Below, in pieces: positions 13,050 through 56,215 of a DNA stretch of 64,000 bases. Position 1 is the first letter of the stretch. Every line of letters begins with the position of its first letter. Where the stretch lies: contig NC_089390.1 of assembly GCF_003171515.1 (NCBI RefSeq), forward strand, positions 1,364,001 through 1,428,000, read 5' to 3'. The stretch is from Pyrenophora tritici-repentis (taxonomy: Eukaryota > Ascomycota > Dothideomycetes > Pleosporales > Pleosporaceae). Under the pieces are notes generated by a model. The model searched no databases, was not told the origin of the DNA, and worked only from the letters and a program-made list of their open reading frames with translations. The position numbers were made by a program, and so were the translations under genes.

Positions 13050-14644
13050 CTACTCCTCCATTCTTCCAAAGATTTCGTCGTCGTCCTCGTCGATGCGGCC
13101 GGTGCTGCGCGAGTTTGAATAGCGGTAGTCCTCTTCGTCGGCGAAGTGGTCGTCATCCATGTCGACATCTTTGCTCTCGCTGTGGTAGCGGTAGCTGTTG
13201 CGCATGCTTGACTGCTGCGCCGTGACCGTGGTGCTGCCAGACAAGGAGCGCGTGTGGAAGTCGAGGAACTTGGCCGGCAGCGGTGGCACGGGAGGCACGT
13301 CCGGCGGCAGTGCGACAGGACCCGTCTTGGGGGTGCCGTAAGAGCAGCTCAGCAGGCCGACGGCAGCAGCGAGGTCAGCATGGTCATTACCGTCGTCGTG
13401 ATAGGAGCCGGCAACCGAGGTGCCTGAAGTGGTGGGACGGTCAGACACATTACTCCATTGACGGAAGTGGCCGCCGTTGTTGTTGTGGTGGTGGCTGTTG
13501 CCGTGGTCGGAGAAGACGGTGGACTGGTACGACTGGCTGTATGCGGAGCTGTTTGTGGAGTAGCGCTTGGCGGAGCGGGAGCCAAAGTGCGAGTGAGGGA
13601 AGGAGCCCACGGCATGGTCATGGTCATCGAGTTGCGGGGGCGGGGTAGTTTCAGTGGAGCTCAACTCCTCACGCAGGTCAGACGAGCCGGAAGCCGGGGG
13701 AGAGGAGCGGTCGCTGTGCTCGCCGTCGCTCTCCTTGTTCATGGCGACGAGGACCGAGGCGGCCTCGAGCAGCTGCACCTGCTGGTGCTTTGAGATGAGC
13801 AGCTTAGACGTGTACTGCCACTCTGGCGTGTGCTCCCAACTAGAACAAAAGTCAACGCAGAACGTGAGAGAAGCATTGCAATTTGTGTATGCGTGCAAGT
13901 GAGGAAAGGGCATTCGTCATGAGGCATGAAAGTATGTGGGAGGGCCATGGTTGTTGGCAAAGGGTGACTAACAGGTGCTTGGTCAGACAGCTGCTATGCT
14001 TGTAGCCTTTCCCACATTTTTCACATCTCAGATCGCTACCACTTCGCTTGCTGGCGTCGGCCTTTGACAGGCGAGAGCCCTCGCTGGCGCGACGATTCCG
14101 CGACTTGGAGCCGGCCTTGTCCTGCTCCAGCATCGTCGCCAGCGAGGGTCCGTCGGTGAGGGCCTCGCTCTTGGCCGCCGCCGCGCCGTAGCTACTGGGG
14201 CCAAACTGCGTATGCGCACCATTACCTGGCATGCTCGAGGCCATGGCCGCTGAGTTGAGTGCCATGCCCGGCCCCCGGAACTGCGAGGCCGGCTTCGACG
14301 AGCGGCGCGGTCCGTTGCTACTGCTGCTACTACTGCCAGCCTCCAGCGGAGCCCCCGATATGCCCTTGGCCGCAGCAGCCAGAGCGGCGACATTGCTGAC
14401 GGGCGTCTGGCTCATGCTCTTCCTGCGGGTGACGCGATGCGCCGGGTTGAGGCTGGCGGCCGATATCGAGTGCGAGTGCGGCCGGTTCTTGGGTAGCGAG
14501 CCGGCCATGGTGCTGGACGAGTGCCGTTGCTGGCTGGCAGGTCGGACGTTGATGGGTTCCTTGCAGGTCGAATATGGTCAGCGCAATCCAAGAGCTGCAA
14601 TTGCCGCGTCGGCAGTGTGTTGTAGGTACCTTGAGGACAGTCAT
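13050..14644 (-). CDS. single C2H2 zinc-finger protein, putative transcription regulator
   Basis: Three exons on the minus strand, 14644-14630, 14559-13973 and 13839-13050, with introns of 70 and 133 nt, give 463 aa. The first exon encodes only MTVLK; it splices in frame to EPINVRPASQQRHSSST and then MAGSLPKNR. The 133-nt intron interrupts the zinc finger and splicing completes it: CEKCGKGYKHSSCLTKH, then LWEH, a C-x2-C-x12-H-x3-H finger near residues 180-200, followed by TPEWQYTSKLLISKHQQVQ, a strongly conserved extension in fungal homologues. The rest is disordered: an R/S-rich N-terminus, His/Asn runs, a Pro-rich segment and an acidic C-terminus (VDMDDDHFADEED). One finger plus the conserved extension suggests a regulator; targets are unknown. 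Unusually long non-coding regions flank it on both sides. Confidence 0.85.
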
Positions 14645-35016: not shown

Positions 35017-35422
35017 ACGGGCATGGGTAGAGAGGAGTAGTGGCGTAGTGGCGTAGAAATGTCTTTGTGATGAGACTGGATGTAGTTGGATAGACGACTC
35101 GTATGTTTTACACGATGAAATATGCTGCTATTGACGCAGCCAGTTATTCAATCATCTCTGGATCACTCATAGAACGCGAAGGCGACGTGTCCATCCACGT
35201 TGCCAGTCAAGCTGTCCGCCAGCAGCATGGAAGCAAGCATTCACTACTCTGCACCCATATATCCCATTGAAGTCCGCAGCTTCACGCCCATCACAGCATA
35301 TCTCTTCACTACTAAATTCCTTATAACATCCTGCACCTCCTCCCCCTTCTCACCACATCTCCACACTTTATAAAAATCACAAACCACCTCCAGAACCAGC
35401 ATCAAACTCACGAATCAAAATC
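35017..35422 (+). promoter_or_regulatory. LysM gene promoter with TATA box at 35369
   Basis: Spacer between the carbonic anhydrase and the LysM gene. TATAAAA at 35369-35375 lies 48 bp before the LysM start codon, and a C/T-rich stretch precedes it. Nothing else is recognised. Confidence 0.5.
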
Positions 35423-35989
35423 ATGACGTATCTACCTCTCCTTCTTCTCGCCCTTTTTCTCCAAGCCTCACGCGTAACCGCAACATCTATTGTCCCACAC
35501 ATCCACTCCAACAACTGCGCCTGTAAACCCGGTATGCCTCTCGGCACCGGTCTACCTGGTTCTCCCAACATGACGATACCAGCCTTTCCCGGTACGCCCC
35601 TCAATACCAGTCTACCCGTTCCTCCCAGCAACACCATACCAGTCCCACCGCGTCTAACCCCACCTCCCAATATCCCCATACCAGGCTTACCCGACGCGCT
35701 AACAACGCTAGTCACCAGTATCATGGGGTCGATGACGGTTTCGTTTAAGCCGTTTGGTTCGACAGCTGCAGTGTCAGCTCCATCAGCGGCTCCCGGCACA
35801 GCAACAATAACTATCAAACCGGGCGACACGCTTGAATCCATAACCAAAGCGAATAACGTGGGCATATGCGATCTTGTAAAGGCGAATGAGATTGTAGATC
35901 CGGATATGGTTCTTTCGGGGGAGACGCTGGTTGTACCGAACGAGAAGGGGGATCCAGGGGACATGAGTTGTTTGGTTCATGAGTATTGA
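35423..35989 (+). CDS. secreted single-LysM protein (LysM effector-like)
   Basis: Single exon, 188 aa. Residues 1-21 (MTYLPLLLLALFLQASRVTA) form a signal peptide. A Pro/Gly/Thr-rich spacer (35-95) contains two tandem 20-residue units, GMPLGTGLPGSPNMTIPAFP and GTPLNTSLPVPPSNTIPVPP. One LysM domain lies at about 128-172 (TITIKPGDTLESITKANNVG then ICDLVKANEI and SGETLVVP). Four cysteines (32, 34, 149, 183) could form two disulphides. No catalytic domain is attached. Secreted LysM-only proteins of fungi bind chitin oligomers and shield hyphae or dampen plant chitin sensing; whether this one does so is inference. Confidence 0.85.
   Translation: MTYLPLLLLALFLQASRVTATSIVPHIHSNNCACKPGMPLGTGLPGSPNMTIPAFPGTPLNTSLPVPPSNTIPVPPRLTPPPNIPIPGLPDALTTLVTSIMGSMTVSFKPFGSTAAVSAPSAAPGTATITIKPGDTLESITKANNVGICDLVKANEIVDPDMVLSGETLVVPNEKGDPGDMSCLVHEY
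35531..35650 (+). repeat. 60-bp tandem duplication inside the LysM gene
   Basis: Two adjacent 60-bp units (35531-35590 and 35591-35650), both in frame, share GGTAYGCC, ACCGGTCTACC-like and ACCATACCAG blocks and encode matching 20-residue Pro-rich units. Confidence 0.7.
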
Positions 35990-38454: not shown

Positions 38455-41133
38455 CTATGACAATTCTGCAGGCGGCTCTTCCCACGTTCCTATCGCAAAC
38501 TCTTCCGTGAGCTCCTCATCAGTATGCTTTGCTGCTGTTGTCGTGCTTGGTGTTGTAAAACCTGCACGAGTCCACCGTTGCAAGCACACCAAAGCAGCCA
38601 GTAACTGCGCGCCAATTTTCCGCCTTTGTGGCTCAATTATATCGCCAGTTCCCGCAAAAACGCGCTCACAATCAGAGCTGGAGGCGGGTATAGTCAACAC
38701 GTCGATCGCCAATCGTGAAAGATGTGGATACTTCGGCTTCAACGATAACCAGTACTGTACAGCTGTTGGACCCTCCTTGTGTTGATCAGACGTCCACATA
38801 GGCTCTTTTAACCAGCTATCGTACTCATCCTCCACCTCCAATGTATGCTCGCCGTCCTCATCTAGTATAGCGTCGATAGCGTCGTCAAAGCTGCTCATGG
38901 TAGGTTTTGGCGCAGGGGTTGGTGTTGTGGCAGCAGCGGCAGGCTTGTAGGCAGCCCAAACCCGCAGAAACTTCGCGTGCGCGGTGCTCAATTGTGTAGG
39001 TTTGTCGCGCCAGAAGCGCTTAGAGTATGTTTTATATCGTGGATGTAGTGCCGTAGCTGCGTAGTAAATGGGACTTTGGAGGATCTTAGTAAAGTAATTG
39101 CTCGCTTTTCGCCTCGCGGCTCGCAGGTTGATCGGGATGTGATCTTCGGGCGCCTCAGATGGCTCGTGGTTGACCGATTCGTATGGCCGAAGGCGTGCAT
39201 CCAGCTCAGTTATCACACTCTCAAATACTGGGATGACCTCGTAGAGTGCGCCAAAACGGCCACACTTGCCGCGGCCTTGGAGGCGATCTGTAGCAAACTT
39301 GAGCGGCTGCAGTATCGCCATGTACTCAGTAATCACCGCCCAGTCAGCCGCCGTAAGGCCGTCTGACCTCATCCACCGCGGCACATCAGGCAGCTTGTTT
39401 CCTCTAATAGCTGCCTGTTCGTCAGCCTGTTCAGTCTCGCGAATGTGGTACGTGGCGTATGCGTTGATAGCTTGTTGGAGCTGAACTCCGCGCTTAAAGC
39501 AGTCGTAATAGCTGTTCCAACGTGTAACACACGGCTTAATTGGCTCGCGAGTGCCGCCGCTGGCGCCTGTGGGCATGCTGTTAACTGCCTCGCGTTGGCA
39601 ATCTTCAAAAATACTCCACTGCTTCGGCGTGTTGATGTAGTTGATAATATCAAGATACACGCCAAGCGGTCCTTCTTTCCGCCACTCCTTCATGTAAAAA
39701 TCCTCCATCTTTGTGTTCTCCAGGGCGTTGTTATACGCGTCAGCATCCCTCCCGAACATAATCGTTTGGCCAACAAGGTTAAGTATGTGGCAAGCGCAGC
39801 GGAGGCGGCGATCGGAGGCAGAAAAGTGGTACATCGCGGCGAGTTTGTTAACAGCGGTGTCGTTATTGTAAGCGTTATCGAGCACAAAGTAGCCGAGTTT
39901 GCTGCGATTAATGCTGAAGGATTGCAGGATTTTGGTTACAGCGTCAGCTATCGCCTCACCAGTGTGGGCACCCACCAGCTGCGGCAGCGCGATGGGTAGG
40001 TCAACTATCGCGCCCTTACTGTTGGCGTAGTGAGCAACTACAGAAAAGAAGCCACGTTTGCCGCCTTTTGTCGTCCACCCATCGAAGCTTATATGTACCT
40101 TGCTCTCGGCTTCAGCCAACGCGCGCACCACCTGAGGCCGTAGCCAACTGTACAACCTCATCACGAACGCTGACACGCTGTTATGAGACCTCCATAACGC
40201 CGCCTCTGCCTCAGGATTAGCAAGCCTGATCATCTTGCGAAAAGCCGGCGTCTCAAACTCGCGGAGTGGTCTGTTGTTGTCGACCAGCCAGAGCGCAGCT
40301 GCCTGCCGAAATTCTTGTACGTCGAAGTTTCCTATAGTCTTGTACGCCTCTAGACTAAATTTGACACCGCTTAGAGCTGCCTGACGAAGTGATTGTTGTC
40401 CATGTTTGCGGAGAGGTTTGCTTAGGATTGGACCATCTTTGCTGAGCCGATGACCAGGTTTATCAAGCTGGAGGTGCCCGTTGGCGGCAGTGGTTGACTT
40501 CGTTACTCGGTGTACACCATTAGGTAGCTTATGAATATGACAGTACTTGCACACAAAGTACAACTCATCTGGGTGGTGAGTACCCTCCTTCCAGACACGC
40601 CAGCCGTGTTGAAAAATCCAGCTTGCCTTGCCTCGTGGAGTGCTCAGCGGCGCGACAAACCCCTTTAATCGCGACCAATCGACGCCCTCAAAGTCGCGAA
40701 AATCGACGCTCACAGCGCTATCCTCCTCCACCGAAGCCTCAGTGGCAGCGCTAGAGAAAGCTAAAGGCTGTACAATAGAGTCCTCTGGCTTATCAAACAT
40801 TAACTGCGACTCCCAGGCTGGCTCATCAGTGAGCCGAGAGGCTTGTGAGGCAGCCAAAATAGGCAGTGGTGATGCCCGCCGAGGGCGCTCCTCGGGTTGT
40901 TGTACAGGCTTACATGGCGGTTCAATAGCCCGTGTGGGCGGCTCGATAACTTGTGTAGGCGGCTCTGTAGGCGGATCCGGCGTACTTTCTGGCAGCTCTA
41001 TCGGCTGGGTTGGCTGGCTGCCGTCACCCAACAGCGCTTTGAGCGTAGGTTTGCGCGTACGTTGTGCTCGCTTGAAGGGAGTATCAGCTTCTTCGGCAGC
41101 CTCGGGCTTGCGTTTTGCTGGTATAGAGGGCAT
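38455..41133 (-). CDS. hAT transposase (intact)
   Basis: Single exon, 892 aa, no internal stop. Residues 1-130 are Pro/Glu-rich, with repeats of the type EPPTQVIEPPTRAIEPP. A BED-type zinc finger lies at about 165-230 (CKYCHIHKLPNGVHRV, then a Cx2C...H pattern). The RNase-H-like catalytic core includes HISFDGWTTKGGKRGFFSVV (first Asp), YFVLDNAYNNDTAVNKL (second Asp) and the CxxH block RCACHILNL. The C-terminal dimerisation domain (hATC) contains VLTIPASSSDCERVFAGTGD and ends near WTRAGFTT. It catalyses cut-and-paste movement of the element. All blocks are present, so the element may be autonomous. Confidence 0.95.
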   Translation of the reverse strand: MPSIPAKRKPEAAEEADTPFKRAQRTRKPTLKALLGDGSQPTQPIELPESTPDPPTEPPTQVIEPPTRAIEPPCKPVQQPEERPRRASPLPILAASQASRLTDEPAWESQLMFDKPEDSIVQPLAFSSAATEASVEEDSAVSVDFRDFEGVDWSRLKGFVAPLSTPRGKASWIFQHGWRVWKEGTHHPDELYFVCKYCHIHKLPNGVHRVTKSTTAANGHLQLDKPGHRLSKDGPILSKPLRKHGQQSLRQAALSGVKFSLEAYKTIGNFDVQEFRQAAALWLVDNNRPLREFETPAFRKMIRLANPEAEAALWRSHNSVSAFVMRLYSWLRPQVVRALAEAESKVHISFDGWTTKGGKRGFFSVVAHYANSKGAIVDLPIALPQLVGAHTGEAIADAVTKILQSFSINRSKLGYFVLDNAYNNDTAVNKLAAMYHFSASDRRLRCACHILNLVGQTIMFGRDADAYNNALENTKMEDFYMKEWRKEGPLGVYLDIINYINTPKQWSIFEDCQREAVNSMPTGASGGTREPIKPCVTRWNSYYDCFKRGVQLQQAINAYATYHIRETEQADEQAAIRGNKLPDVPRWMRSDGLTAADWAVITEYMAILQPLKFATDRLQGRGKCGRFGALYEVIPVFESVITELDARLRPYESVNHEPSEAPEDHIPINLRAARRKASNYFTKILQSPIYYAATALHPRYKTYSKRFWRDKPTQLSTAHAKFLRVWAAYKPAAAATTPTPAPKPTMSSFDDAIDAILDEDGEHTLEVEDEYDSWLKEPMWTSDQHKEGPTAVQYWLSLKPKYPHLSRLAIDVLTIPASSSDCERVFAGTGDIIEPQRRKIGAQLLAALVCLQRWTRAGFTTPSTTTAAKHTDEELTEEFAIGTWEEPPAELS

Positions 41134-41499
41134 GGATAAGGCTAAAAGTAAGCCGGAGCCGCGAGAAAGTAAGGTGTTGTTAAATGTTATAAGCCTGATG
41201 TCAGTAGCACTAGGAATAGAACATGTGTGAATCGTGTTGTGTATTGTGCTACAGGAATTGAGATCTATGTCTCTGCCAGCTAGCGTTGTGGGCGCTAAGC
41301 CTCGTACGTACTAGCCTGGAGTGAGTGAGAGATGGGATGGAACCTAGGTCATATAACTTACACGCGAGTAGGCTTAGTAAGCAAGATCCAACACTAAGAA
41401 TTCGTCGTTGAGCAGCTATCCCAGAGGCCTCACCTAGGTATCCCCCTCCCTCGCTTACTATCAAACAACACCAATCCTATCAACATTTTGTTCTCAAGA

Positions 41500-41619: not shown

Positions 41620-43217
41620 TGACTGAGGGCTATCCGATATCCGAACTACCGAAGACATTCCGAGACGCGGTGCAGGTGTGCCAGTCCCTTGGTATATCGT
41701 ATATTTGGATTGATGCGTTATGTAAGTCTAGTTGTTCTCATGTATCAGGCGGTTAATCATTGTATGGTGCACAGGCATCTTGCAAGATAGTAAGGAGGAT
41801 TGGGAAGAAGCAGCTGCTACGATGGCCAACATCTACCAAAATTCACATGTCACAATTGCAGCTACGTTCGCGTGGAATAGCAATGAGGGTTTGTTCTCGA
41901 ACCGTGATCCTGCGGCTCTTGCGAAGCGCCTAAAATTGCATCCTCATCTTCACGCCATGGAGGCACCAGTGCCCTTCCCTCACAATCTATCCGAGCAAAA
42001 CCTGGATCTATGGCCACTACTTGCTCGGGCTTGGGTATATCAAGAACGTATGTTCTCTCCTCGTACTATACACTTTGGCAAATATCAAGTGTATTGGAGA
42101 TGTGACCATTACTTTGCTTCAGAGGATGGTTGCGAAGATATGATATGGTCAAAAAAATCAGGACATCCTCTGTCGGGACATGCGCGTACAGCCAGCCCGG
42201 CGAGTTTTTCCGGGCCGGAAGCTTGGATCACTAGTTAGACCAAGCTTCCCGCTTAGCTCGCACCCGTACATATGGAGATCTCTCCACCCAGCTCTTGCTC
42301 ACTACTAATCAAATATCATATACTTTGTTCGTTGCAACGACAGTGATATTCGACACCTTTGCCGTGTCAACATCCTCGGTAGCTTGGAAAATCGGACTGA
42401 GAATCCCTCGTTCGATTGGCACAGGTTTGTCACGGAATACACGGGCCTTGAACTGACCTACGAAACCGACCGTTTACCGGCCATTGCAGCCGTGGCTGAG
42501 CGAATATCACGAACGATGCGAGCAGATGATATCTATGTTACTGGGTTATGGAAAGATAGCATCATCTCTGATATGTTGTGGTGTCCGATGATCCCTGGCC
42601 GTCGCACACCCCTCCATCAGCGAGGAAAGCCCTCCTGGTCTTGGGCCTCATATCCAAGGATGAAAATCACGTTCCTCGGAGATCCGACAGTCCCGTATAT
42701 GGCCGATTTTGTGAGTCTAGATTACACTGCTGTAGGATCAACGTACCTGGGAGAAGTCAAGGACGCTAGCGTTGTAGTAAAGGCGCCCACCCTGACTATC
42801 ACGGACCCGGACGGACTATCTCAGATGGAATTGAAAGACCTTCTGAAACACCCTGCTGAGTACTTTCGGGACACCCTCCCACGAAAGTATGGGCAGAGGT
42901 ACCCTATGTCATTTGAGCCTTTGCCTGCCGAGTGGGGAAACTGCCACCTGGGTGTGTTCTTACGCAACGACTACGATCCTACGACTGCCATTCCACCCTA
43001 CGCAACAGGAACTGTTCTGAAGGTACAGCTTTTTCAGCGCTCCGAAGGTACTATATGGGCACTAGTTCTGCGATCACTGCCAGTGACTTCTCGTCAATAC
43101 GAGAGATTTGGGACGATAATGTTACGTTTCTCGCCACTTGGGGGAGAAGAGATTGCGTATGATTTAGTTCTGAAATTTCTACAATCCCTACCGCTAGAAA
43201 AATTAAAGATCGTATAA
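41620..43217 (+). pseudogene. HET-domain gene, 3' part
   Basis: Directly after the right GAAGAACC copy the HET frame resumes as LTEGYPISELPKTFRDAV, then CQSLGISYIWIDAL. A 53-nt intron (41722-41774) follows, then CILQDSKEDWEEAAATMANI, YQNSHVTIAATFA and LLARAWVYQERMFSPRTIHF, all typical HET blocks. This frame stops at 42236-42238. Family-like sequence continues in another frame from about 42309 (NPSFDWHRFVTEYTGLELTY, DRLPAIAAVAERI) to 43217. I found no canonical intron joining the two frames; a weak donor at 42172 could do so in phase. Either a non-canonical intron or a second lesion is present, at a site where a hairpin lies. Confidence 0.8.
42217..42249. repeat. perfect 10-bp hairpin inside the HET 3' part
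   Basis: GGAAGCTTGG (42217-42226) and its exact reverse complement CCAAGCTTCC (42240-42249) flank a 13-base loop. The flanks show weaker inverted similarity out to about 42185 and 42270. The HET frame stops inside the loop. Confidence 0.6.
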
Positions 43218-45847: not shown

Positions 45848-46770
45848 TCAAACGTGCTTGTCGAAGAAAGCGATGACAAGCTTGTATGCCCTCTCGTACT
45901 CAGCCTTCACCTTCTCGTCCTCGAGGTCGGCACGCGCCGTCATAAAGCCGTGGAGCTGATCATCGAAGCGCTCAAAGTGCTTGGGCACGCTCAGTCCCTT
46001 CTCGAATTCCTTCACCACCTCCACTTCTTCGTCGCCGGAAGCAATCATGAGATGCGGCATTTCGATGCCAGCCGCTTCTTTGGGGTCGAGCATGGCCGGG
46101 TGGCACTGGGCACCAGCCGCAAACTTGCAGAGCTTGTTGGACGTGACGACGGAAACGATCTTGCCGCCCCAGCAGAACTACGCGTATGTTTATCAGATGA
46201 CGATCCCAGTTTCGTTCTTTTCTGGATACGGGACTTACTCCTAGGATACCCCAAGATTTGATGCTGGTGTACTTTTTGCCAATCGCGTCGACCATGCCGG
46301 GGAGCTTGCCTACTGCGGTCTGAGGGTTGCCTGTCGATCCGAAGAAAGCTCCCAGCGGTCCGTCCATACCCTGTGCCATCCAGCTCATCTCGGCCGGCTT
46401 TCCGTCGAAGAAGTCGGGCATGAAGACCTGGTACTTGCCTGAGTGCGCAAGCAGATCAGCGCCTTGCACCGTTTGGTCGAAGAAACCGAAGATGTCGTAG
46501 ACGACAAAGATAGCTTTGGAGGCATCTGATGGACCAGTGACATCTACATGAGTGTCAGCCACGTGAAAAAGAGTATGGTGAAATTCATTTTGTTGCTGGG
46601 AGATTCCTACACATTTTGGTGTCGCCAATAGTCTCATAGCGGCCCTTGGGGGTATAGCCCTTGGACACAACCGGGGGGATGGAGCAGCATGCTGGGGAGT
46701 ATTCGGACATGGTGGCTTTACTGTAGGATTTCTCCTTTAGTGACTTCTCCTTGGAGGGAAAACAGCCCAT
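45848..46770 (-). CDS. dienelactone hydrolase-family alpha/beta hydrolase with N-myristoylation-type start
   Basis: Three exons on the minus strand, 46770-46611, 46543-46239 and 46177-45848, with introns of 67 and 61 nt, give 264 aa. Family landmarks: CCSIPPVVSKGYTPKG, FVVYDIFGFFDQTVQGADLL, MPDFFDGKPAE, then SWGILGFCWGGK with the nucleophile Cys (an intron splits GILG|FCWGG), MIASGDEEV (Asp region) and FDDQLHGFMTARA (His). Fungal members cleave lactones or esters; few have known substrates. Unlike typical members, which start near MSEYSP, this one begins MGCFPSKEKSLKEKS, a classic Gly2 myristoylation site with adjacent Cys3 palmitoylation site and basic residues, predicting membrane attachment. 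It lies 1.1 kb from the multicopper oxidase gene, in the same orientation. Confidence 0.88.
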
Positions 46771-47834
46771 GGTGCAGATACTGTGGTGACTTAAAGAGAT
46801 GGGTATGAGACTAGAGAAAAGATCAAGGGGTCAGCGCACCGGTGCTTATGTGAACCTGTGAGATAGATCGAGTTCCTGGAGTGTTGGGTACAGTGTAGTC
46901 GGAGATGCGGATGTGAAAGTGATGTTTGATCAAGCAGACAGGATAGTGAGTCCTTTATGTATTTACTGTCGAGCATAGAGATGTGAGACACACGGCCTTA
47001 ACGGGAATCACAGCGGCATTACCGGGATTTACTTCTGATATCGAGTGCATGTAACCGCAGCACTATCGCATTACCAAGACGGAGATATCGGAATCAACCT
47101 GACATTCATCCCTTGCGTCTAAGAGACGGGGCCACAAGCACGATAGCAAGGCTGAGCTGCTGCACAGCTGGGATGGTCCGAGCGTTGGCGTTCATGTGGC
47201 ACAGCATGTAACCATGTTCGCTTCGGGATCCGAGGGCGTGGGATAAAGTAAGCTGACCGCAGACGGGACTCGCTTAGATAATGACCCCTTTGTTTCCCGG
47301 ACCCCACGTCAACGCCACGAAGTTATGGCGGTCAGAACTCTAGCTGACATGATAGGCTCTTTGTTTCCCGAACCCTTGCGCAAAATCACAAAACAGTGGT
47401 GGTCAGGTCTCTAGGGACCGGTAAAATGCCACCATTCTGCCACGATTATCAGTCATGTAAACTAAACGCAGCTCTGGATCAATATCACAGCATGCACACA
47501 GCAAAGAAAATCCTAATGGACAATAGTCTACACAATTAAGCATGTAGGAATGGTAGAGGTCAACCTGGTATCTTGACCAGACTACCAGCGTTGTGCAACA
47601 TGTATTTGTAATTGAAATGATCAATGCAAGATATATACGGTAACTATGCAAATCTGATTTAGAAATAGTATTTATAGAAAGACTCGAATGCGCAAAACAT
47701 GAAAAACACAACCTCGTCTATCGTAAGAAAAGAACTAAGCCCAAACAAACAAGTGTACTAGTAGAAGAACTGAAGATACATGCCTATATACAAAATGAAA
47801 AAAAATTGCGAATGCAACCTTAGATACACGCACC
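46771..47834. other. intergenic with a degenerate 71-bp tandem repeat
   Basis: Spacer between the hydrolase gene's start and the oxidase gene's stop. It holds the repeat at 47288-47429. The rest, including an AT-rich stretch at 47580-47830, shows nothing recognisable. Confidence 0.45.
47288..47429. repeat. degenerate 71-bp tandem repeat, two units
   Basis: Both units begin CTTTGTTTCCCGRACCC (47288 and 47359) and share GTGGYGGTCAG-like and CTCTAG blocks at matching offsets. Other positions have diverged. Confidence 0.5.
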
Positions 47835-49616
47835 CTACACTCCGCTATCCACCTGATCTACAACGTTCTGACTACTGTACTTGTCCCAAGCCCGACAAGT
47901 ATTCTTGTTCTGCGCTGGAAAGTTCATCTTTGCAACGTCCTGCGGCCTCTCTATCAAGCTCGAAAACATGCCAGTGGAAACATGCCAGGCAACGTGGCAA
48001 TGCAACGACCAGACACCTGGGTTGTCCTGTTCGTACTGAATGACCAGATGACCTGAAGCGCGCAGCTGGTGGACATCGCGACGGTGAGGGTTCTGTGGAC
48101 GAACAATTGTATGGCCGTCCCAACGTCCCGGCCCCTCTGATAAAACCTGCATGTTATGGCCGTGCAGGTGCATAGGGTGGTGCGTGTTATTGGACTTGTT
48201 GTACATGATTATGCGCACGGTTTTGTTCTGGCCCATGTTGTGCACGTTCCATTCTGGGTGGGTGGGGTATGAAGTGTTGCGGTTCTTCACAAGCTCTAGA
48301 ATGGGGTTGTTGTAGTTTGCGCGGAAAGCTGAGTCGTTGACTGTCCAGGTCTGGTGGCCAGTGGCATTGATGACGCGATCGTAATCAAGGTTGATAATGC
48401 TGGTAGGGTTCTGTTTGACGGCTATAGGGTAGCTAGGCTCTGTCTTCTCAAGAGGATCGTTGATACAGGTATGGTAGACATCGGTGATGGGGTGAGCGGT
48501 ACTATTGGGACGCTGACGTTCATCCGCTTGATCGTAGTAAATAGCTGCCAGAGCTAGAGGCTGATGCGAAGCGGCGCATAGATCAGATATCATGGACCGC
48601 ATCCAGAAAGCGCCTTTCCGGTCTTTCTTTGCCTTGACAAGGATGTCAGTGCGCTGTCCAACGCCCAATGTGATCACATCTGTGTTGTAAGGCTTGACGG
48701 GGACAAAGTCGTTTGCGATAACAGTCATCTCATGTCCGTCAATGGAGAAGTGCTGTAGAGAAGCTGCGCCGGAATTGACCAAGCGCAATCGATGTGTCTT
48801 GCCAGCCCGGAAACGGAATTTTGACAATCCAGCGTTCGATACGCATGGCCTGCCATCTGTAATAGTCGTGCAATCAAAGTCCATTTTCCCGTTGATCATG
48901 TTGTTGTCTGCCCAGGGTCGCCAGAGCGTTTGATTTGTGCCGACTGCATCGTCGATCAGCTCGAGATAGTCTTTATGCCACCAGTCGTTGATGAATACAG
49001 GGCCGAGATCGATTTCGTGGCCCTCAGAGGCCGGACCATGTACTACAACGGGGCCCATAAGTCCTCCAATTTGCTGACCAGAGTAATGACTGTGATACCA
49101 GGACGTGCCGTATAGATCAGCTTTGAACTTGTAGGTAAAGGTTTCTCCAGGAGCAATTGGACATTGGGATACTGACGGAACTCCGTCCATCCAGGGTGTA
49201 TCCTTCATGGTGAAGCCATGGAAATGCATAGCGGTTCCTTCAACTGGGCCAGCAATCTTGTTATGAATCGTGACTTCGATCATATCTCCCCAGTTGGCTT
49301 CGAGTAGAGGTCCGGGAAATTGGCCATTCACAAGAAGTACGTTCTTACTGTAGCCGTCTGGAGATAGTGGTTTTCGCTCAAGCGTCCAATCAACCTTAAC
49401 CGTCTGGCCCGTATGTGGGGCATCAATATATGGGTTCGAGTTCCAGCAGTTCCGGCCTCCCCAGGGGTTTCCATGGCCGCGGTCGATCCAGTTATTGAGT
49501 AGAGGTGCATCTAGTGTGCCCCAGTTGGATAAGCCATTGGTCTGACTTTGTGGAAGAGCAGGCTGGAATGGAATGGTTCCTGCGAAAAGCTTCGTAATGA
49601 CTGATGAGTTGACCAT
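47835..49616 (-). CDS. multicopper oxidase (laccase family)
   Basis: Single exon, 593 aa. All four copper-binding blocks are present: HFHGF (131-135), WYHSHYSGQ (173-181), HPMHLHGH (480-487) and HCHVAWHVSTGM (539-550), the last with the type-1 copper Cys. Cupredoxin domains cover about 70-200, 210-370 and 430-570. Laccases oxidise phenols by one electron and reduce O2 to water, coupling or polymerising aromatic compounds. The N-terminus, MVNSSVITKLFAGTIPFQPA, has only a weak hydrophobic stretch, so secretion is doubtful; no upstream exon with a better leader was found. A TATA-like sequence lies about 85-92 bp upstream (49701-49708). It is divergent from the DAHP synthase gene, suggesting shared control and a role in the same pathway. 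Confidence 0.92.
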   Translation of the reverse strand: MVNSSVITKLFAGTIPFQPALPQSQTNGLSNWGTLDAPLLNNWIDRGHGNPWGGRNCWNSNPYIDAPHTGQTVKVDWTLERKPLSPDGYSKNVLLVNGQFPGPLLEANWGDMIEVTIHNKIAGPVEGTAMHFHGFTMKDTPWMDGVPSVSQCPIAPGETFTYKFKADLYGTSWYHSHYSGQQIGGLMGPVVVHGPASEGHEIDLGPVFINDWWHKDYLELIDDAVGTNQTLWRPWADNNMINGKMDFDCTTITDGRPCVSNAGLSKFRFRAGKTHRLRLVNSGAASLQHFSIDGHEMTVIANDFVPVKPYNTDVITLGVGQRTDILVKAKKDRKGAFWMRSMISDLCAASHQPLALAAIYYDQADERQRPNSTAHPITDVYHTCINDPLEKTEPSYPIAVKQNPTSIINLDYDRVINATGHQTWTVNDSAFRANYNNPILELVKNRNTSYPTHPEWNVHNMGQNKTVRIIMYNKSNNTHHPMHLHGHNMQVLSEGPGRWDGHTIVRPQNPHRRDVHQLRASGHLVIQYEQDNPGVWSLHCHVAWHVSTGMFSSLIERPQDVAKMNFPAQNKNTCRAWDKYSSQNVVDQVDSGV

Positions 49617-50582
49617 ATTGTAGATGGACTGCTGGTTTGAGGAAATGAGAGACTGTAAATCTTGTCGTTGCTGTTTTCGCAGACACCCGGCAAAGAGACA
49701 TATTTATGTATCTCTTCCTACACGACGCTCTTCCGTCGGTGACTCTAGTTCAGGTTCATCACGGCCTCCGCCGTGAGTTCCAGCGTATCTCGAGGTCTCC
49801 AGCGTGGCTAAGCACACACATCCTCAGCGTGGCTTCAGGATAGCCACCCCATCAGGCCTTCAAACAATCCGAGACGGGCGCTGATATCAGGTCGTCAGAG
49901 CTGGGTCCAAACTTGACTCCGTATGGAACTGCACCGTGAGATGTGGACAAAGCTGAGACATTTCTATCTACAGCCTCATCATCGATCTCGTGATAGAGAT
50001 GATGAGTTTTGATGAGAGTTTTCCCATCTGTTCAGCGCTGATACGGGCATAAAGTGTACTAAATTTGCTACTGGTGATATCTAAACTCGACCAAGAAAGT
50101 TATCATGCAGATATGAAGGATTCAATCTCTCGTTGCTAAGCGTGAGACTGGATTGGTAGAGTGGCTTGAAACATGTTGTGGCTTGAACTATGCTGTGGCT
50201 TGCCTCTGCTCGCGTAGTATGGAGAAGCGAAAGCCATGTACCAATGTGACCGAGCCTAGGCCTCAACCTGAGGCTGAGTACAAGTCTAGAAAGCACAGGC
50301 TTCTACCATGTTTAGAAACCAGGCTCTGACTTCGTCCGGTTGGGATGCCAGCTTGTACTGTAGGTGTAAAGAGAGTGCCTAGGCACCTGATCTCAAGGTC
50401 AGATCGAGGCGCACAGTTGCCATGGGTGAGCTGAGTTAAGCAGTGGTCAAGATACGAGGCTTGGCATCATCTTATTACTTTATCGGGAAGTCTACCAGCC
50501 AAGCCGCGAGCGGCTGAGAGCGGATAATGGCGCCAGTCTTGGAGGATTAATCAACACTGCTTACTCGTCGATTACCCCCACG

Positions 50583-50618
50583 CCGCTTACCCTTCCGCTT
50601 ACCCTTCCGCTTACCCCT
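50583..50618 (+). repeat. three tandem 12-bp units in the divergent promoter
   Basis: CCGCTTACCCTT occurs twice exactly and a third time as CCGCTTACCCCT, head to tail. Such short clustered repeats in a cluster promoter could be regulator binding sites. Confidence 0.8.
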
Positions 50619-51131
50619 ACGCAGTTAAGGTACCCTTCGCTTCCTATTTGCTTATCTGTGCCTATTAAATTCAAGACTCGATAAGGATTAGAAGCTTGGT
50701 GGGCTTATCTGGGTTGCAGAGCCACTGCAATGCAGGGCGCGCGACTCAGTCCTAGGAATTAGTCAGTTCCGACTACAGAGCTCGGGTAATCGTACAAGGA
50801 CCCCTAGAAGATAGTAATTACCTAGATAGCCTTGATTTCATATCTGTGAAGCAGATATAGCCCATGCCTGGATCACATGTGTGCAAAGTTAGATCCTGAT
50901 GGAAGCTTGTGTAACGTAGAGCAGCTCCTTGGTTCGCAGATCTTTTGAAAGACCCACCTCCTGCAACACCACACAGTGTGTTAATCTTACCATCCCGTCG
51001 TGGACGCATGTCAGATGAGTAGAGTGGATGGTTATACCGATGGCTCATGTGTCTTGTATCAAGGTACACGAGAGCGGTCAAGAGATGCTGGAGTTATGAC
51101 TTCCGAGGTCGAACAAGGGCATATCAAACTA

Positions 51132-51137
51132 TATAAA
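51132..51137 (+). promoter_or_regulatory. TATA box of the DAHP synthase gene
   Basis: TATAAA inside CTATATAAATCGG, 91 bp before the start codon at 51228. Confidence 0.55.
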
Positions 51138-51227
51138 TCGGCCTGGACACCCCAAGAATATATCCATCGCTCAGTCATATTCCAGAAGAGTTCCTATCTT
51201 TCTGCCAACATCCACTTATCATTCACA

Positions 51228-52382
51228 ATGAGTTCTCCATTCTTCACCACAAAGCTCAAGCTCGCATCTGCTGCAGGTCTCCAAGCCGAAGGAACAAGAG
51301 TGACTCAGCTCTTGCCCTTGGTGCCGGCTGGCCTGTTGCAATCCGAGGTCCCTCTCTCGGGGTCTTCTCTAGACACTGTCCTTCAAAGCCGACAAGACGT
51401 GTCTGCAGTGTTGGCCAAGCTAGATGATCGCCTTCTTGTCATAGTCGGTCCGTGCTCCATTCATGACCCTGTCGCCGCAATGGAATATGCGAGACGCCTG
51501 AAGGAGCTCAGTGAGCGCCTCTCAGGTGAAATCTGCGTTGTTATGAGGGCTTATCTCGAAAAGCCACGCACATCTGTTGGCTGGAAAGGCTTGATCAACG
51601 ACCCTTACCTAGACGAATCCTTTGCCATCAACGATGGATTGAAGATTTCTCGGAAGCTTCTAGTCGATATCAACAGTATCGGCCTCCCCGTCGCTACAGA
51701 GCTGCTCGACACACTCTCTCCACAATACTTCGCCGATACAATCGCTTTCGGGGCTGTCGGTGCTCGTACGACGGAGTCCCAGCTTCATCGCGAACTTGTC
51801 TCAGGTGTTTCGTTTCCCGTGGGCTTCAAAAACGGAACCGATGGTGGCCTTACTGTAGCCATGGACGCTATGAAGTCGTCTGCTTCGCCGCATCGCTTTC
51901 TAGGCGCGACCAAAACCGGCCTTACTGGCATAGTGCATACGAGTGGAAACAGCGACACAGCTGTCATTCTCCGTGGCGGTTCTAAAGGCCCTAACTACGA
52001 TGCCGACAGTGTTGAACAAGCTCTGGGATCTCTACGCTTCCGTGGGCAGCGAGATGTGGTCATCGTCGACTGCTCTCACGGAAATTCCAGCAAAGACTAT
52101 CGCAACCAGCCCATCGTGGCTGGCGTGATCGCCGAACAAGTCGCACGGGGACAGCGAAACATTGTTGGGGTGATGTTGGAGTCGAACATATACGAAGGTC
52201 GTCAGGACGTTCCAGCCACTGGTGCAGGCGGACTTCTTCCTGGCGTGAGTATCACGGATGGGTGTATTGGATGGGATGCTACGGTCCAGGTCCTTGAGAG
52301 GCTTGCAGAGGCTGTCCAGCTACGACGCACGGTGATGCCCACCGCCACTCTGACACCAGAGGATAGTGATAATGGCTGCTAA
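51228..52382 (+). CDS. 3-deoxy-7-phosphoheptulonate (DAHP) synthase, class I
   Basis: Single exon, 384 aa. The frame is open upstream to 51000, but ATG 51228 (CACAATGAG) starts the family-like part and lies after the TATA box. The enzyme joins phosphoenolpyruvate and erythrose-4-phosphate, the first step to aromatic amino acids. Motifs: VIVGPCSIHDPVAAMEYARR, RAYLEKPRTSVGWKGLINDP, VGARTTESQLHRE, GFKNGTDGG, ATKTGLTGIVHTSGNSD, VILRGGSKGPNYD and DCSHGNSSKDY. All expected catalytic and metal residues (Cys in GPCSIHD, His in CSHGN, Glu in MLESN, Asp in SITDGCIGWD) appear present. A single housekeeping copy would not need to sit here: next to a keto-acid synthetase it probably serves as a dedicated, possibly differently feedback-controlled, precursor enzyme. 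Confidence 0.93.
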   Translation: MSSPFFTTKLKLASAAGLQAEGTRVTQLLPLVPAGLLQSEVPLSGSSLDTVLQSRQDVSAVLAKLDDRLLVIVGPCSIHDPVAAMEYARRLKELSERLSGEICVVMRAYLEKPRTSVGWKGLINDPYLDESFAINDGLKISRKLLVDINSIGLPVATELLDTLSPQYFADTIAFGAVGARTTESQLHRELVSGVSFPVGFKNGTDGGLTVAMDAMKSSASPHRFLGATKTGLTGIVHTSGNSDTAVILRGGSKGPNYDADSVEQALGSLRFRGQRDVVIVDCSHGNSSKDYRNQPIVAGVIAEQVARGQRNIVGVMLESNIYEGRQDVPATGAGGLLPGVSITDGCIGWDATVQVLERLAEAVQLRRTVMPTATLTPEDSDNGC

Positions 52383-53458
52383 AGTCATTGGTAGCCATAT
52401 TTTATAAGGTTTTTAGGTGGCGTGTTGGATTTCCATAGAACTTTTCGTAATAGAACCTTGCCAATACATGAGATTTGCCTTACCTACTCGCCTGATAATC
52501 TCCAAGGCTCCAGTACCTGTTGTCCATCGTGATTCACGTTATCTCTCTGAGTCTAGTTTATCGCTTATTGCTATGATTCAAGCGTCAGGCCGACTACCTC
52601 TTGTTAGTACGAGCTGGGGCGGGCGTTCCTGGCTCGACCAGATATGGTGTAACGTTGGCCTCTAAGCTCCCACCGTCTCACCGCCTGGCATAGTACATCC
52701 CGAGAACTTCCGTAAACCTGAACCCTGCTCTTAGACAAATCGTGGTTAATACCCGGGTAATACCCATGTACGCCCGATGCAGAAGGATTTGGCAAGTAGA
52801 TGCTGTTTGTGTAACAGTAAGCTTACCCCACCCCACGCCTAGCAACCTTGGCAGATAAGCTTGTGTTAAGCGAACCAAATATGTGCAACATCATGCCCGC
52901 TTTGCTATATACGGAAGCCGATAACTTGAAGGATGCAGTTGATGTTACAGGCTTGAATCAAACACATGGGCTGTTTTTACCAGGTAGGAGACGTTGGGGA
53001 TTGACGGCCTCACGGTCAATACTTGTCTCAACTTACAGATGTTTTCCATGCCCCACGTATCCTGCAGGAGACTGCTTTGGGATGCAGAGACAAAGACATA
53101 AGCCTTGCGCCGGCTTGGATGAAACAGAGTTCATATTTAATGCGCATTTCGGGCTGGATGCTGCGAGCCCACCGGGCAGGCACGGTGCATTGGTCTGAGT
53201 CAGATGTGCCTAGTAGGATTCATATCGCGGAATATGCAATTAAACTGATAACGGTATCATGGCTGCTGAAGGAGTGTTCAAAATGTTGGGGTGGAGGATA
53301 TCGACGGTAGAGTTGGGAGACAAGGGAGAGAAGTCCGTCGATATCCAAGATGGGCGTCCGAGTAGCTGAAAGGTTTGAATTTAAGATGCGTTCCGTTCCA
53401 GGTTTGATAGAAGAAAGAAGCATCACTTCGCACCACTGAGTTCTTCTCTACTACCAAC
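52383..53458. other. intergenic, nothing recognised
   Basis: About 1.1 kb between two co-oriented genes. I looked for an aminotransferase or other tailoring gene here and found no protein-like frame. Confidence 0.5.
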
Positions 53459-56215
53459 ATGGCTGTCACAAATTTATCCCAGTTGCTTCAGCACAGTGCT
53501 ACAGCCTTTCCCAACAAGGGAATCACCTGTCTCCAGGATGGTAGAACTTGCCACACGTCCTATAGCGATCTGTTCAGTATTGCAGAGATCAATGCGGCCC
53601 AGATTCGAAAGCTCGCAGGGCGCGGCAGTCCAATATTCCTGATTCATTTCGACAACCATTGGGACAATATTGTCTGGTTCTGGTCCGTGGTTCTCGCAGG
53701 ATATATTCCAGCAATGTCTACTCCATTGGTTTCAGATGGTGAACAGCGGGAGAAGCATCTATTACACCTGCACCGCCTCCTGGAAGATCCCATTGTATTG
53801 ACGTCAACCCGTCTCCAGAGCGATCTAGCCACCTCAGATTCTCAGTTCCAACTCCAAATTCGACCGATTGAGAAATTTGGCGATGAGAGTTCAGAATGGA
53901 GTGGTACAAGCTCGTCAGTCATGGGAAGCAGCGACATTGCCGCTCTCATGTTGACATCCGGAAGTACTGGGCACGCGAAAGCTGTAACATTACGGCATGG
54001 CCAAATTGTCGCTGCGCTCAATGGAAAGAGCCAATATCATGAAACGACATCGGAGGACGTCTTTCTCAGTTGGATTGGGATGGACCATGTCGCCAATCTT
54101 ACGGAAATCCATCTCCATGCCATGCATCTGGGTGCCGACCAAGTCCAACTTCCCGCAGGAGACGTCATCAACGATCCGCTATTGTTTCTGCAGCAGTGTG
54201 CGCAACACCGTGTGTCGTACACCTTCGCTCCAAACTTTTTCTTAGCAACCCTTCTTCGTAGCCTCCAAAAGGGCGAGCAGCTGTCGAGCATGGATCTATC
54301 CCGCCTGCGCGCATTGATATCCGGTGGCGAAGCCAACGTTGTCGAGACGTGCGACGATCTCTCGAAGATACTGATGGATTACGGTGCACCCAGGAGCCTC
54401 ATCAGGCCAGGCTTCGGTATGACAGAAACATGCGCCGGGTCGATTTATGGGAAGAACTGCCCGGAGTATGACATCTCGCGAGGGCTGGAATTCGCATCTC
54501 TTGGTTCTTGTGTTCCTGGCATGTTTGTCAGAGTGGTGGAGAGCTCCGGCAGGGTACTGAACAGTAGCGAGGTCGGGTATCTGGAGGTTTCCGGGCCGGT
54601 TGTGTTTAGCGGGTATTACAACAATTATTCCGCAACAACCGAAGCTTTTCCGACTAAGGAATGGTTCCGCACAGGTGATCTCGCTTTCATCGACGATGCA
54701 GGCCAGCTCACCATGACCGGCCGGGCCAAGGACACCGTGAACATCAACGGCCTGAAGTACCCAATCCAGGAACTGGAAACAGCAATTGAGGAGGCTGACA
54801 TAAAAGGCCTGACGCCCAGTTACACAGCCATATTCCCGCATCGTGTCAAAGGGTCTTCGACAGAAGCTATAGTTGTTGTGTATCTTCCCGATTACAGCCC
54901 TGAGCATGTGGAAACCAGGGTCAAGGTTGCAAGAAGTGTGTCGCAGGTTCTCTTGCAGATCTGTGCAGTCCGGCCTTGCGAGATACTCCCGCTTACCGTT
55001 GAACATCTCCCCAAGTCGTCACTCGGCAAACTTTCGCGGGCTAAACTTCGTCGCGCTTTCGAGGAGGGCAAGTTCAAAGAGATTGTGGATATGAACAATC
55101 GTCTTGTTGCTGAGTACCAGCAGCACTTTTATACCGCGCCGCGAAACAAAACCGAAGCCAAACTCCTGGACGTAGTGCGAAGCAGTTTGGACATAGCAGA
55201 GAGCATCAAGATTGGTATCGATACCGATTTCTCCGACTTGGGTGTGACTTCTGTTGAAATTCTTAGGCTAAAGTCGCGCATCGACGTTGCTCTTCGGCTT
55301 TCCAAGTCACTGCCCATTGGCACTCTTTTAGTCAATCGCACAATCCGTCAACTTGGAAAGGCGATTGCCGCGTTGCAAGAATCGCCGTACGAGCCAATGA
55401 CCATCTTGCAACCAGATGGCAACAAGACCCCTCTCTGGCTGGTTCATCCTGGAGTGGGTGAGGTCCTGATTTTCATCCAACTCGCACGGTACATGACAGA
55501 TCGTCCAGTGTACGGTCTTCGAGCTCGGGGCCTTGACGGCGAGCAGCCATTTACCAGCATCTCTGAAGCCGTTCAGGCTTACCATGAGTCGATCCGCCGA
55601 ACCCAACCGAAAGGCCCATACGCCATCGCAGGTTATTCCTATGGATCCAATCTTGCCTTTGAAGTCGCCAAGCTCATCGAGGCAGACGGAGATGAGGTCA
55701 AATTTCTGGGGGCTTTTGATCAGCCACCGCACCTCGCGGCGCGATCTCAACAGTTCGACTGGGTGGACTGTGTGCTTTTTGTTTCCTTCTTTCTCGGTCT
55801 GATCACCGAAGAGCAAGCGAAGCACACCCTCGGATGTCATTTGAGGAACTTGTCTCGGGAAGATGCACTGTCGCATATTCTTGACAATGCACCCAAAGAT
55901 CGTGTCGACGAATTGGCCATCACGAGGAAGAAATTGGCCGATTGGGCCGGTGTTGCGTTCCAGCTCAAAGTCATAGGTCGGGAATATGACCCCACTGGTA
56001 AAGTAGCGAGGCTCGACTGCTTCTATGCTGCACCACTACCCGAAGTGGCATCTACAATGAAAGAGTGGGATGCTATCATCGCCGAGTGGGCACCCTTTGT
56101 GAAGGGCGACGTAGGGTACCATCGTGTTGACGGTGGACACTACGACATGATCACGACTCATGTGCGCTCTTTCCAGAAACGTTTGAAGCAGGTCCTAGAG
56201 GATCGTGGGGTGTAG
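53459..56215 (+). CDS. NRPS-like A-T-TE synthetase of the aryl-pyruvate (atromentin/terrequinone) type
   Basis: Single exon, 918 aa. Adenylation domain, about 1-535: TSGSTGHAKA (166-175), SWIGMDHVANLTEIHLHAMH (204-223), GFGMTETCAG (318-327), TGDLAF (405-410), GRAKDTVNINGLKY (421-434) and K524 in SLGKLSRAK. Thiolation domain, about 560-640, with the carrier Ser598 in DLGVTSVEIL. Thioesterase, about 650-918, with GYSYGS (Ser727), Asp754 and GGHYDM (His894). There is no condensation domain. This layout, and the DHV...E.H motif where amino-acid-activating enzymes have a conserved Asp, mark synthetases such as TdiA, AtrA, MicA and the aspulvinone synthetase, which condense two aromatic alpha-keto acids into quinones, furanones or butenolides. 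Exact substrate and ring type cannot be read from sequence. Confidence 0.9.
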   Translation: MAVTNLSQLLQHSATAFPNKGITCLQDGRTCHTSYSDLFSIAEINAAQIRKLAGRGSPIFLIHFDNHWDNIVWFWSVVLAGYIPAMSTPLVSDGEQREKHLLHLHRLLEDPIVLTSTRLQSDLATSDSQFQLQIRPIEKFGDESSEWSGTSSSVMGSSDIAALMLTSGSTGHAKAVTLRHGQIVAALNGKSQYHETTSEDVFLSWIGMDHVANLTEIHLHAMHLGADQVQLPAGDVINDPLLFLQQCAQHRVSYTFAPNFFLATLLRSLQKGEQLSSMDLSRLRALISGGEANVVETCDDLSKILMDYGAPRSLIRPGFGMTETCAGSIYGKNCPEYDISRGLEFASLGSCVPGMFVRVVESSGRVLNSSEVGYLEVSGPVVFSGYYNNYSATTEAFPTKEWFRTGDLAFIDDAGQLTMTGRAKDTVNINGLKYPIQELETAIEEADIKGLTPSYTAIFPHRVKGSSTEAIVVVYLPDYSPEHVETRVKVARSVSQVLLQICAVRPCEILPLTVEHLPKSSLGKLSRAKLRRAFEEGKFKEIVDMNNRLVAEYQQHFYTAPRNKTEAKLLDVVRSSLDIAESIKIGIDTDFSDLGVTSVEILRLKSRIDVALRLSKSLPIGTLLVNRTIRQLGKAIAALQESPYEPMTILQPDGNKTPLWLVHPGVGEVLIFIQLARYMTDRPVYGLRARGLDGEQPFTSISEAVQAYHESIRRTQPKGPYAIAGYSYGSNLAFEVAKLIEADGDEVKFLGAFDQPPHLAARSQQFDWVDCVLFVSFFLGLITEEQAKHTLGCHLRNLSREDALSHILDNAPKDRVDELAITRKKLADWAGVAFQLKVIGREYDPTGKVARLDCFYAAPLPEVASTMKEWDAIIAEWAPFVKGDVGYHRVDGGHYDMITTHVRSFQKRLKQVLEDRGV

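Follow-up and report, generated by a model that had tools for sequence, protein, structure and literature searches.

Two described fungal gene clusters pair an adenylation-thiolation-thioesterase (A-T-TE) synthetase with a 3-deoxy-D-arabino-heptulosonate 7-phosphate (DAHP) synthase. The ascocorynin cluster of Ascocoryne sarcoides contains acyN, a zinc finger regulator gene, and a DAHP synthase gene that is co-expressed with acyN (PMC9047271), and the allantofuranone (alf) cluster of Allantophomopsis lycopodina contains the A-T-TE synthetase AlfA and the DAHP synthase AlfS (PMC12105029). A third system, Asp-melanin formation in Aspergillus terreus, involves 4-hydroxyphenylpyruvate, the synthetase MelA, and the tyrosinase TyrP (PMC5488105). 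Here, we describe a locus of the wheat tan spot pathogen Pyrenophora tritici-repentis in which A-T-TE synthetase and DAHP synthase genes adjoin genes for a laccase and a dienelactone hydrolase (DLH)-like protein. It lies in a stretch of 64,000 nucleotides, hereafter the window (C1:1364001-1428000, contig NC_089390.1, in a genome of 40.9 Mb that comprises 41 contigs). From left to right, the order is DLH-like hydrolase (-), laccase (-), DAHP synthase (+), and A-T-TE synthetase (+). A preliminary description of this DNA had reported four intact genes here, and Pfam and NCBIfam matches together with active-site and copper motifs confirm all of them (Table 1). We consider it probable, though well short of assured, that the DAHP synthase and synthetase genes have been inherited as a small biosynthetic cluster like those for ascocorynin and allantofuranone, with the laccase as a candidate tailoring enzyme and the DLH-like protein probably outside the pathway.

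The synthetase is a non-reducing nonribosomal peptide synthetase (NRPS)-like enzyme. In its stop-to-stop open reading frame (ORF), Pfam recognized AMP-binding (5e-38), PP-binding (9e-6), and Thioesterase (2e-26) domains, and at an E value of 0.001 no condensation or reductase domain was present. The A-domain motifs are in place, the carrier serine lies in DLGVTSVE, and the thioesterase serine and histidine lie in GYSYGS and DGGHYDM, respectively. The specificity code was read, with positions placed by motif and not by alignment to GrsA, from 122 rows comprising the window synthetase, a paralogue from the same genome, and the 120 matches listed. The first code position was Val in all 122 rows, including the window enzyme; Val at this position marks activation of a keto acid and not of an amino acid (PMC10316625). 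Together with the terminal thioesterase and the lack of a reductase, this residue bears out the earlier assignment to the type that dimerizes aryl-pyruvates. Position 5 is Ile in both the window synthetase and AcyN, as in 96 of the 122 rows (Ala 13, Val 5, Thr 3, Leu 2, and Gly, Asn, and Pro 1 each). Since Ile or Val at position 5 tracks phenylpyruvate and Asn tracks 4-hydroxyphenylpyruvate (PMC10316625), phenylpyruvate is the most likely substrate.

Among listed matches, the synthetase is identical to protein P0001 of P. tritici-repentis Pt-1C-BFP except for a 23-residue stretch that is absent from P0001, probably because of a wrongly predicted intron. The deposited P0001 is named luciferin 4-monooxygenase, and its missing 23 residues are open in the present genome. 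Identity is 85% to P0003 of Pyrenophora seminiperda, in which the active-site motifs are the same, and 48% to the polyporic acid synthetase AcyN. When 61 of the 122 rows were used for a quick tree, the window synthetase grouped with P. seminiperda and two further relatives (support of 100) and then with P0005 and Phyllosticta (100), outside a 21-row clade containing AcyN; orthology to AcyN was rejected on this basis. AcyN is the only named characterized synthetase among the 120 matches, which leaves the product classes of the thioesterase inseparable by this comparison. No P. teres protein was named among the same 120 matches.

Three DAHP synthases were found in the genome: an Aro3-type copy on C2, an Aro4-type copy on C9, and the window copy. 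At the position of Aro4 residue 226, the C2 copy carries Ser, and the C9 and window copies carry Gly; the window enzyme is a divergent copy of the Aro4 (tyrosine-inhibited) type. Beyond its own entry, the best match is P0122 of P. seminiperda (89% identity), and the next is at 63%. A quick tree was built from 62 rows, namely the genome's two other copies and 60 of the 120 sequences listed, among them the window copy itself; in it, the window and P. seminiperda enzymes share a long stem (1.47 changes per column), against a median end branch of 0.079. This stem joins P0123, a metagenome protein, and P0143, from the lichen Bacidia gigantensis, with a support of 98, although the long branches make the joining unsure. 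At 34 columns where at least 93% of 118 homologues agree on one residue, the window enzyme has a different one, and the P. seminiperda enzyme has 31 of these 34 departures. The GYDPL stretch on the N-terminal side, Leu194, and Val227 are changed. Altered regulation is plausible for an enzyme of this sequence, and the divergence makes its regulation worth measuring. The window enzyme, P0123, and P0143 may represent a specialized DAHP synthase family.

As in clusters of the ascocorynin/allantofuranone type, the DAHP synthase gene stands beside the synthetase gene, at a distance of 1.1 kb. Sharing of a contig by relatives of the window genes was judged by eye, from the same species name and the same contig size in base pairs, over three lists of 120 best matches. 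By this measure, the P. seminiperda synthetase P0003 and DAHP synthase P0122 lie on one 761,060-bp contig of strain CCB06. The earlier proposal of a DAHP synthase beside the synthetase that may raise aromatic flux is in keeping with this finding, and the two genes look to have been inherited together. The alternative that an ordinary amino-acid DAHP synthase adjoins an unrelated synthetase by chance would fit the general presence of DAHP synthases in fungi, but we regard it as very unlikely in view of the two other copies elsewhere in the genome, the strong divergence of the window copy, and the shared P. seminiperda contig.

Several observations weigh against the cluster that we propose. The P. 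seminiperda pair is co-located at the level of the contig, and its order and spacing, including any tight linkage, would have to be presumed. Four named species occur in both the synthetase and the DAHP synthase matches listed, and only P. seminiperda shares a contig; the DAHP synthases of the other three (Caeruleum heppii, Watsoniomyces obsoletus, and Phyllosticta citriasiana) may be ordinary copies. Position 5 of the code is not a strict determinant of specificity, and swaps at this position relax specificity in some enzymes but not in CorA (PMC10316625). Changes at K229 of Aro4 and at D154 of Aro3 relieve feedback in the yeast enzymes (PMC10349828); by our own reading, D154 is equated with D161 of Aro4. 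The window DAHP synthase keeps D161, Q166, and K229 (Aro4 numbering), with none of the classical feedback-resistance changes at these positions, and any release from inhibition is thus putative. No Zn2Cys6 regulator, transporter, aminotransferase, or methyltransferase was recognized among the 31 window ORFs scanned with Pfam, a scan that short exons or intron-split genes could escape. The zinc-cluster transcription factor of the ascocorynin/allantofuranone type of cluster was thus absent from these ORFs; one C2H2 finger, below the cutoff, was found about 39 kb away (ORF 13852-14577). Finally, no P. seminiperda laccase was found in the best 120 of 1,918 matches, which reach down to about 50% identity, although a badly predicted gene could escape. 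For the check on conserved adjacency proposed earlier, the P. seminiperda result is a shared contig for relatives of the synthetase and DAHP synthase.

On our preferred explanation, the dedicated DAHP synthase would draw carbon into the shikimate pathway, and phenylpyruvate would accumulate. The substrate that the A domain would adenylate and load onto the T domain would be an aromatic alpha-keto acid, with phenylpyruvate as the likeliest candidate, and the thioesterase would join two units to give a core of the terphenylquinone, furanone, butyrolactone, or dioxolanone type. The divergently transcribed laccase would be a candidate for oxidative tailoring or coupling that only some lineages acquired or retained. 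This small gene set points to an aromatic metabolite made by a fungus that is an important pathogen of wheat, and it adds a lineage to the pattern of A-T-TE synthetases that travel with their own DAHP synthase.

The laccase contains four copper motifs and ends in DSGV, which fits the DSG[L/V/I] pattern; we take a DSG C-terminal tail to be the mark of Asco-laccases. The axial position, ten residues after the copper Cys, is occupied by Met550. Among 120 laccase homologues, 6 have Met at this residue, 95 have Leu, and 19 have Phe. A tree of all 120 sequences listed placed the window laccase as sister to three Botryosphaeriaceae laccases, one of Neofusicoccum parvum and two of Diplodia, with an SH-like approximate likelihood ratio test (SH-aLRT) value of 100, and these three sisters also carry the axial Met. 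The position reads Leu/Met in the solved pair 3sqr/3v9e, which we take to be a Botrytis aclada laccase in its wild-type form and as a mutant with a lower potential. The window laccase is presumably of low potential and would then favor easily oxidized substrates such as hydroquinones. A weaker signal peptide was also considered (hydropathy peak of 1.37 versus 1.84-3.06 in nine others), but this measure was too crude to be used. A role of the laccase in the pathway is possible.

The strongest competing explanation, which we rate as doubtful, is that all four genes form one pigment pathway in which the laccase couples or polymerizes the dimer, as the preliminary description proposed, and the hydrolase modifies a lactone intermediate at the membrane. 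The adjacency of the genes and the divergent upstream region common to the laccase and DAHP synthase are consistent with this explanation, as is the axial Met, which may suit an easily oxidized substrate. The GC content at third codon positions (GC3) is also similar for the DAHP synthase (0.543), synthetase (0.564), and laccase (0.567). The values for the DLH-like gene (0.713), a neighboring FIT-domain gene (0.616), and an alpha-galactosidase ORF (0.634) are all higher, and this pattern of six genes weakly favors the laccase, synthetase, and DAHP synthase as a unit and sets the hydrolase apart. For the DLH-like enzyme, only a general family identity was recognized, and nothing connects its gene to the pathway, of which it is probably a passenger. 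Its protein starts with MGCFPSKEKS, which we take to resemble an acylation motif, and a copy with 49-51% identity lies on C5. The longest exact word common to the three upstream regions examined was 12 bases, and several pairs of CGG/CCG half-sites were seen; neither made a convincing shared regulatory motif.

Comparison with the described systems bears on the laccase in both directions. Asp-melanin formation likewise uses an NRPS-like synthetase and a pigment-making copper oxidase, and the preliminary description had drawn this parallel. It proved weak, because the window synthetase has a phenylpyruvate-type code and not that of a 4-hydroxyphenylpyruvate synthetase, and because TyrP is a tyrosinase (PMC5488105) and not a laccase; the same reasons speak against a simple copy of the Asp-melanin system. 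A phenylpyruvate dimer would lack the phenols used in Asp-melanin, and direct polymerization by a laccase as in that system is therefore not expected. The laccase might instead oxidize a dimer in its enol or hydroquinone form, by comparison with the alf pathway, in which expression of alfA and alfC without the later alf genes gave a reactive terphenyl intermediate that was re-oxidized or dimerized with O2 (PMC12105029). This dimer formation in air speaks for the one-pathway explanation. The alf cluster resembles the window in its A-T-TE synthetase with a cluster DAHP synthase. Its genes for a dehydrogenase, an O-methyltransferase, a ring-cleavage dioxygenase, and a regulator set it apart from the window, where none of these was recognized among the scanned ORFs, and the alf gene table lists no laccase (PMC12105029). 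The ascocorynin locus shares with the window a synthetase with Ile at position 5 adjoining a DAHP synthase, but has a regulator, contains a synthetase of another clade, and lacks the adjoining laccase found here.

Pairing of a laccase with an A-T-TE synthetase was also found outside Pyrenophora. Nine named species besides P. tritici-repentis occur in both the synthetase and laccase matches listed, and in two of them the relatives share a contig: Thelocarpon superellum, with the A-T-TE synthetase P0027 and laccase P0305 on one contig of 13,047 bp, and C. heppii, with P0010 and P0275 on one contig of 801,228 bp. The 13-kb Thelocarpon pairing is hard to put down to chance, and the 801-kb Caeruleum case is weak. 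These pairings favor a single pathway, but in the tree of 120 listed sequences both contig laccases fall in a subclade other than that of the window laccase, and that of Thelocarpon has an axial Leu. One conserved laccase/A-T-TE cluster in Pyrenophora and Thelocarpon was rejected by this tree; since the laccases lie in separate subclades, any link to A-T-TE synthetases arose independently. The pairing may nevertheless recur across lineages. We offer only tentatively, as an idea more apt to fail than to hold, that on more than one occasion laccases were recruited to sites beside A-T-TE aryl-pyruvate synthetases to couple or polymerize their dimers, with an axial-Met laccase in Pyrenophora and, in Thelocarpon and perhaps Caeruleum, one with an axial Leu. 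Such a route would be distinct from that of Asp-melanin, with a specialized DAHP synthase feeding the Pyrenophora pathway, and if true would be a new fungal way to pigments from aryl-pyruvate dimers. The Thelocarpon contig, on which both gene families occur within a span of 13 kb, is itself a candidate A-T-TE and laccase cluster in another fungal lineage; no T. superellum DAHP synthase was found among the DAHP synthase matches listed.

It is unlikely, in our judgment, that the link between the synthetase and DAHP synthase is historical, with a pathway that has fallen silent or decayed in P. tritici-repentis. A second A-T-TE synthetase gene of the genome that lacks the end of its thioesterase domain (C1:4354156) would fit such decay. 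However, the four window genes are all intact, the active-site motifs are unchanged in P. seminiperda, and the DAHP synthase and laccase clusters were counted on 23 and 24 public contigs, respectively. The second synthetase (G000:C1:4354156-4356525; L019:7069-9597, -) is about 44-46% identical to the window enzyme and has Thr at position 5. The end of its thioesterase domain was not seen by eye in the following 970 bases. An aminotransferase class I/II fragment (L019:2732-3184) and, by eye, an hAT-like ORF lie nearby.

The preliminary description knew of no cluster with this combination of genes, but the pairing of an A-T-TE synthetase with a DAHP synthase has precedents (PMC9047271, PMC12105029). 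The core cluster appears to be of this already described type, with the laccase as an intriguing addition and a laccase-coupled pigment as a possible product. Among the papers listed in literature searches on laccases and on Pyrenophora, none treated this combination by its title. For isolate M4, six (PMC7232245) and four (PMC5913888) NRPS-like clusters have been reported, and the locus may well be within the supplementary tables of Pyrenophora cluster surveys already.

Table 1. Coordinates of the four genes, their shared upstream region, and flanking features in the window
Feature	Position	Strand	Details
DLH-like hydrolase	45848-46770	-	Three exons, own splice model; Pfam DLH 2.5e-14
DLH-like exons	46770-46611, 46543-46239, 46177-45848	-	264 aa (own splice model)
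Asco-laccase	47835-49616	-	593 aa; three Pfam Cu-oxidase domains
Divergent upstream region common to laccase and DAHP synthase	49617-51227	.	1,611 bp; sequence
DAHP synthase	51228-52382	+	384 aa; Pfam 7e-85; NCBIfam aroFGH 3e-144 (best)
A-T-TE NRPS-like synthetase (core enzyme)	53459-56215	+	918 aa; intronless; Pfam AMP-binding/PP-binding/Thioesterase
HET-domain ORF, left flank	41732-42238		Pfam
hAT-type transposase ORF, left flank	38455-41310		951 uninterrupted codons; hAT dimerisation domain, Pfam 3.8e-17
FIT-domain gene, right flank			Pfam
Family-36 alpha-galactosidase ORF, right flank			Pfam

Two details of the layout differ from the preliminary description. In place of two divergent pairs, there is one divergent junction, between the laccase and DAHP synthase, that separates two same-strand pairs. 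The ORFs taken for BTB-like genes on both sides had no Pfam match at an E value of 0.1 and are not clearly alike (E value of 0.007 across 48 residues). Insertion of the laccase by a transposon was considered and rejected: three intergenic stretches, including the divergent region, matched the genome only at themselves in a search that passes over very common words. The frame of the left-flank transposase is apparently intact. Further to the left, ORF 35327-35989 encodes a small, possibly secreted protein that has a single LysM domain (Pfam 5.7e-9) as well as a hydrophobic segment close to its start.

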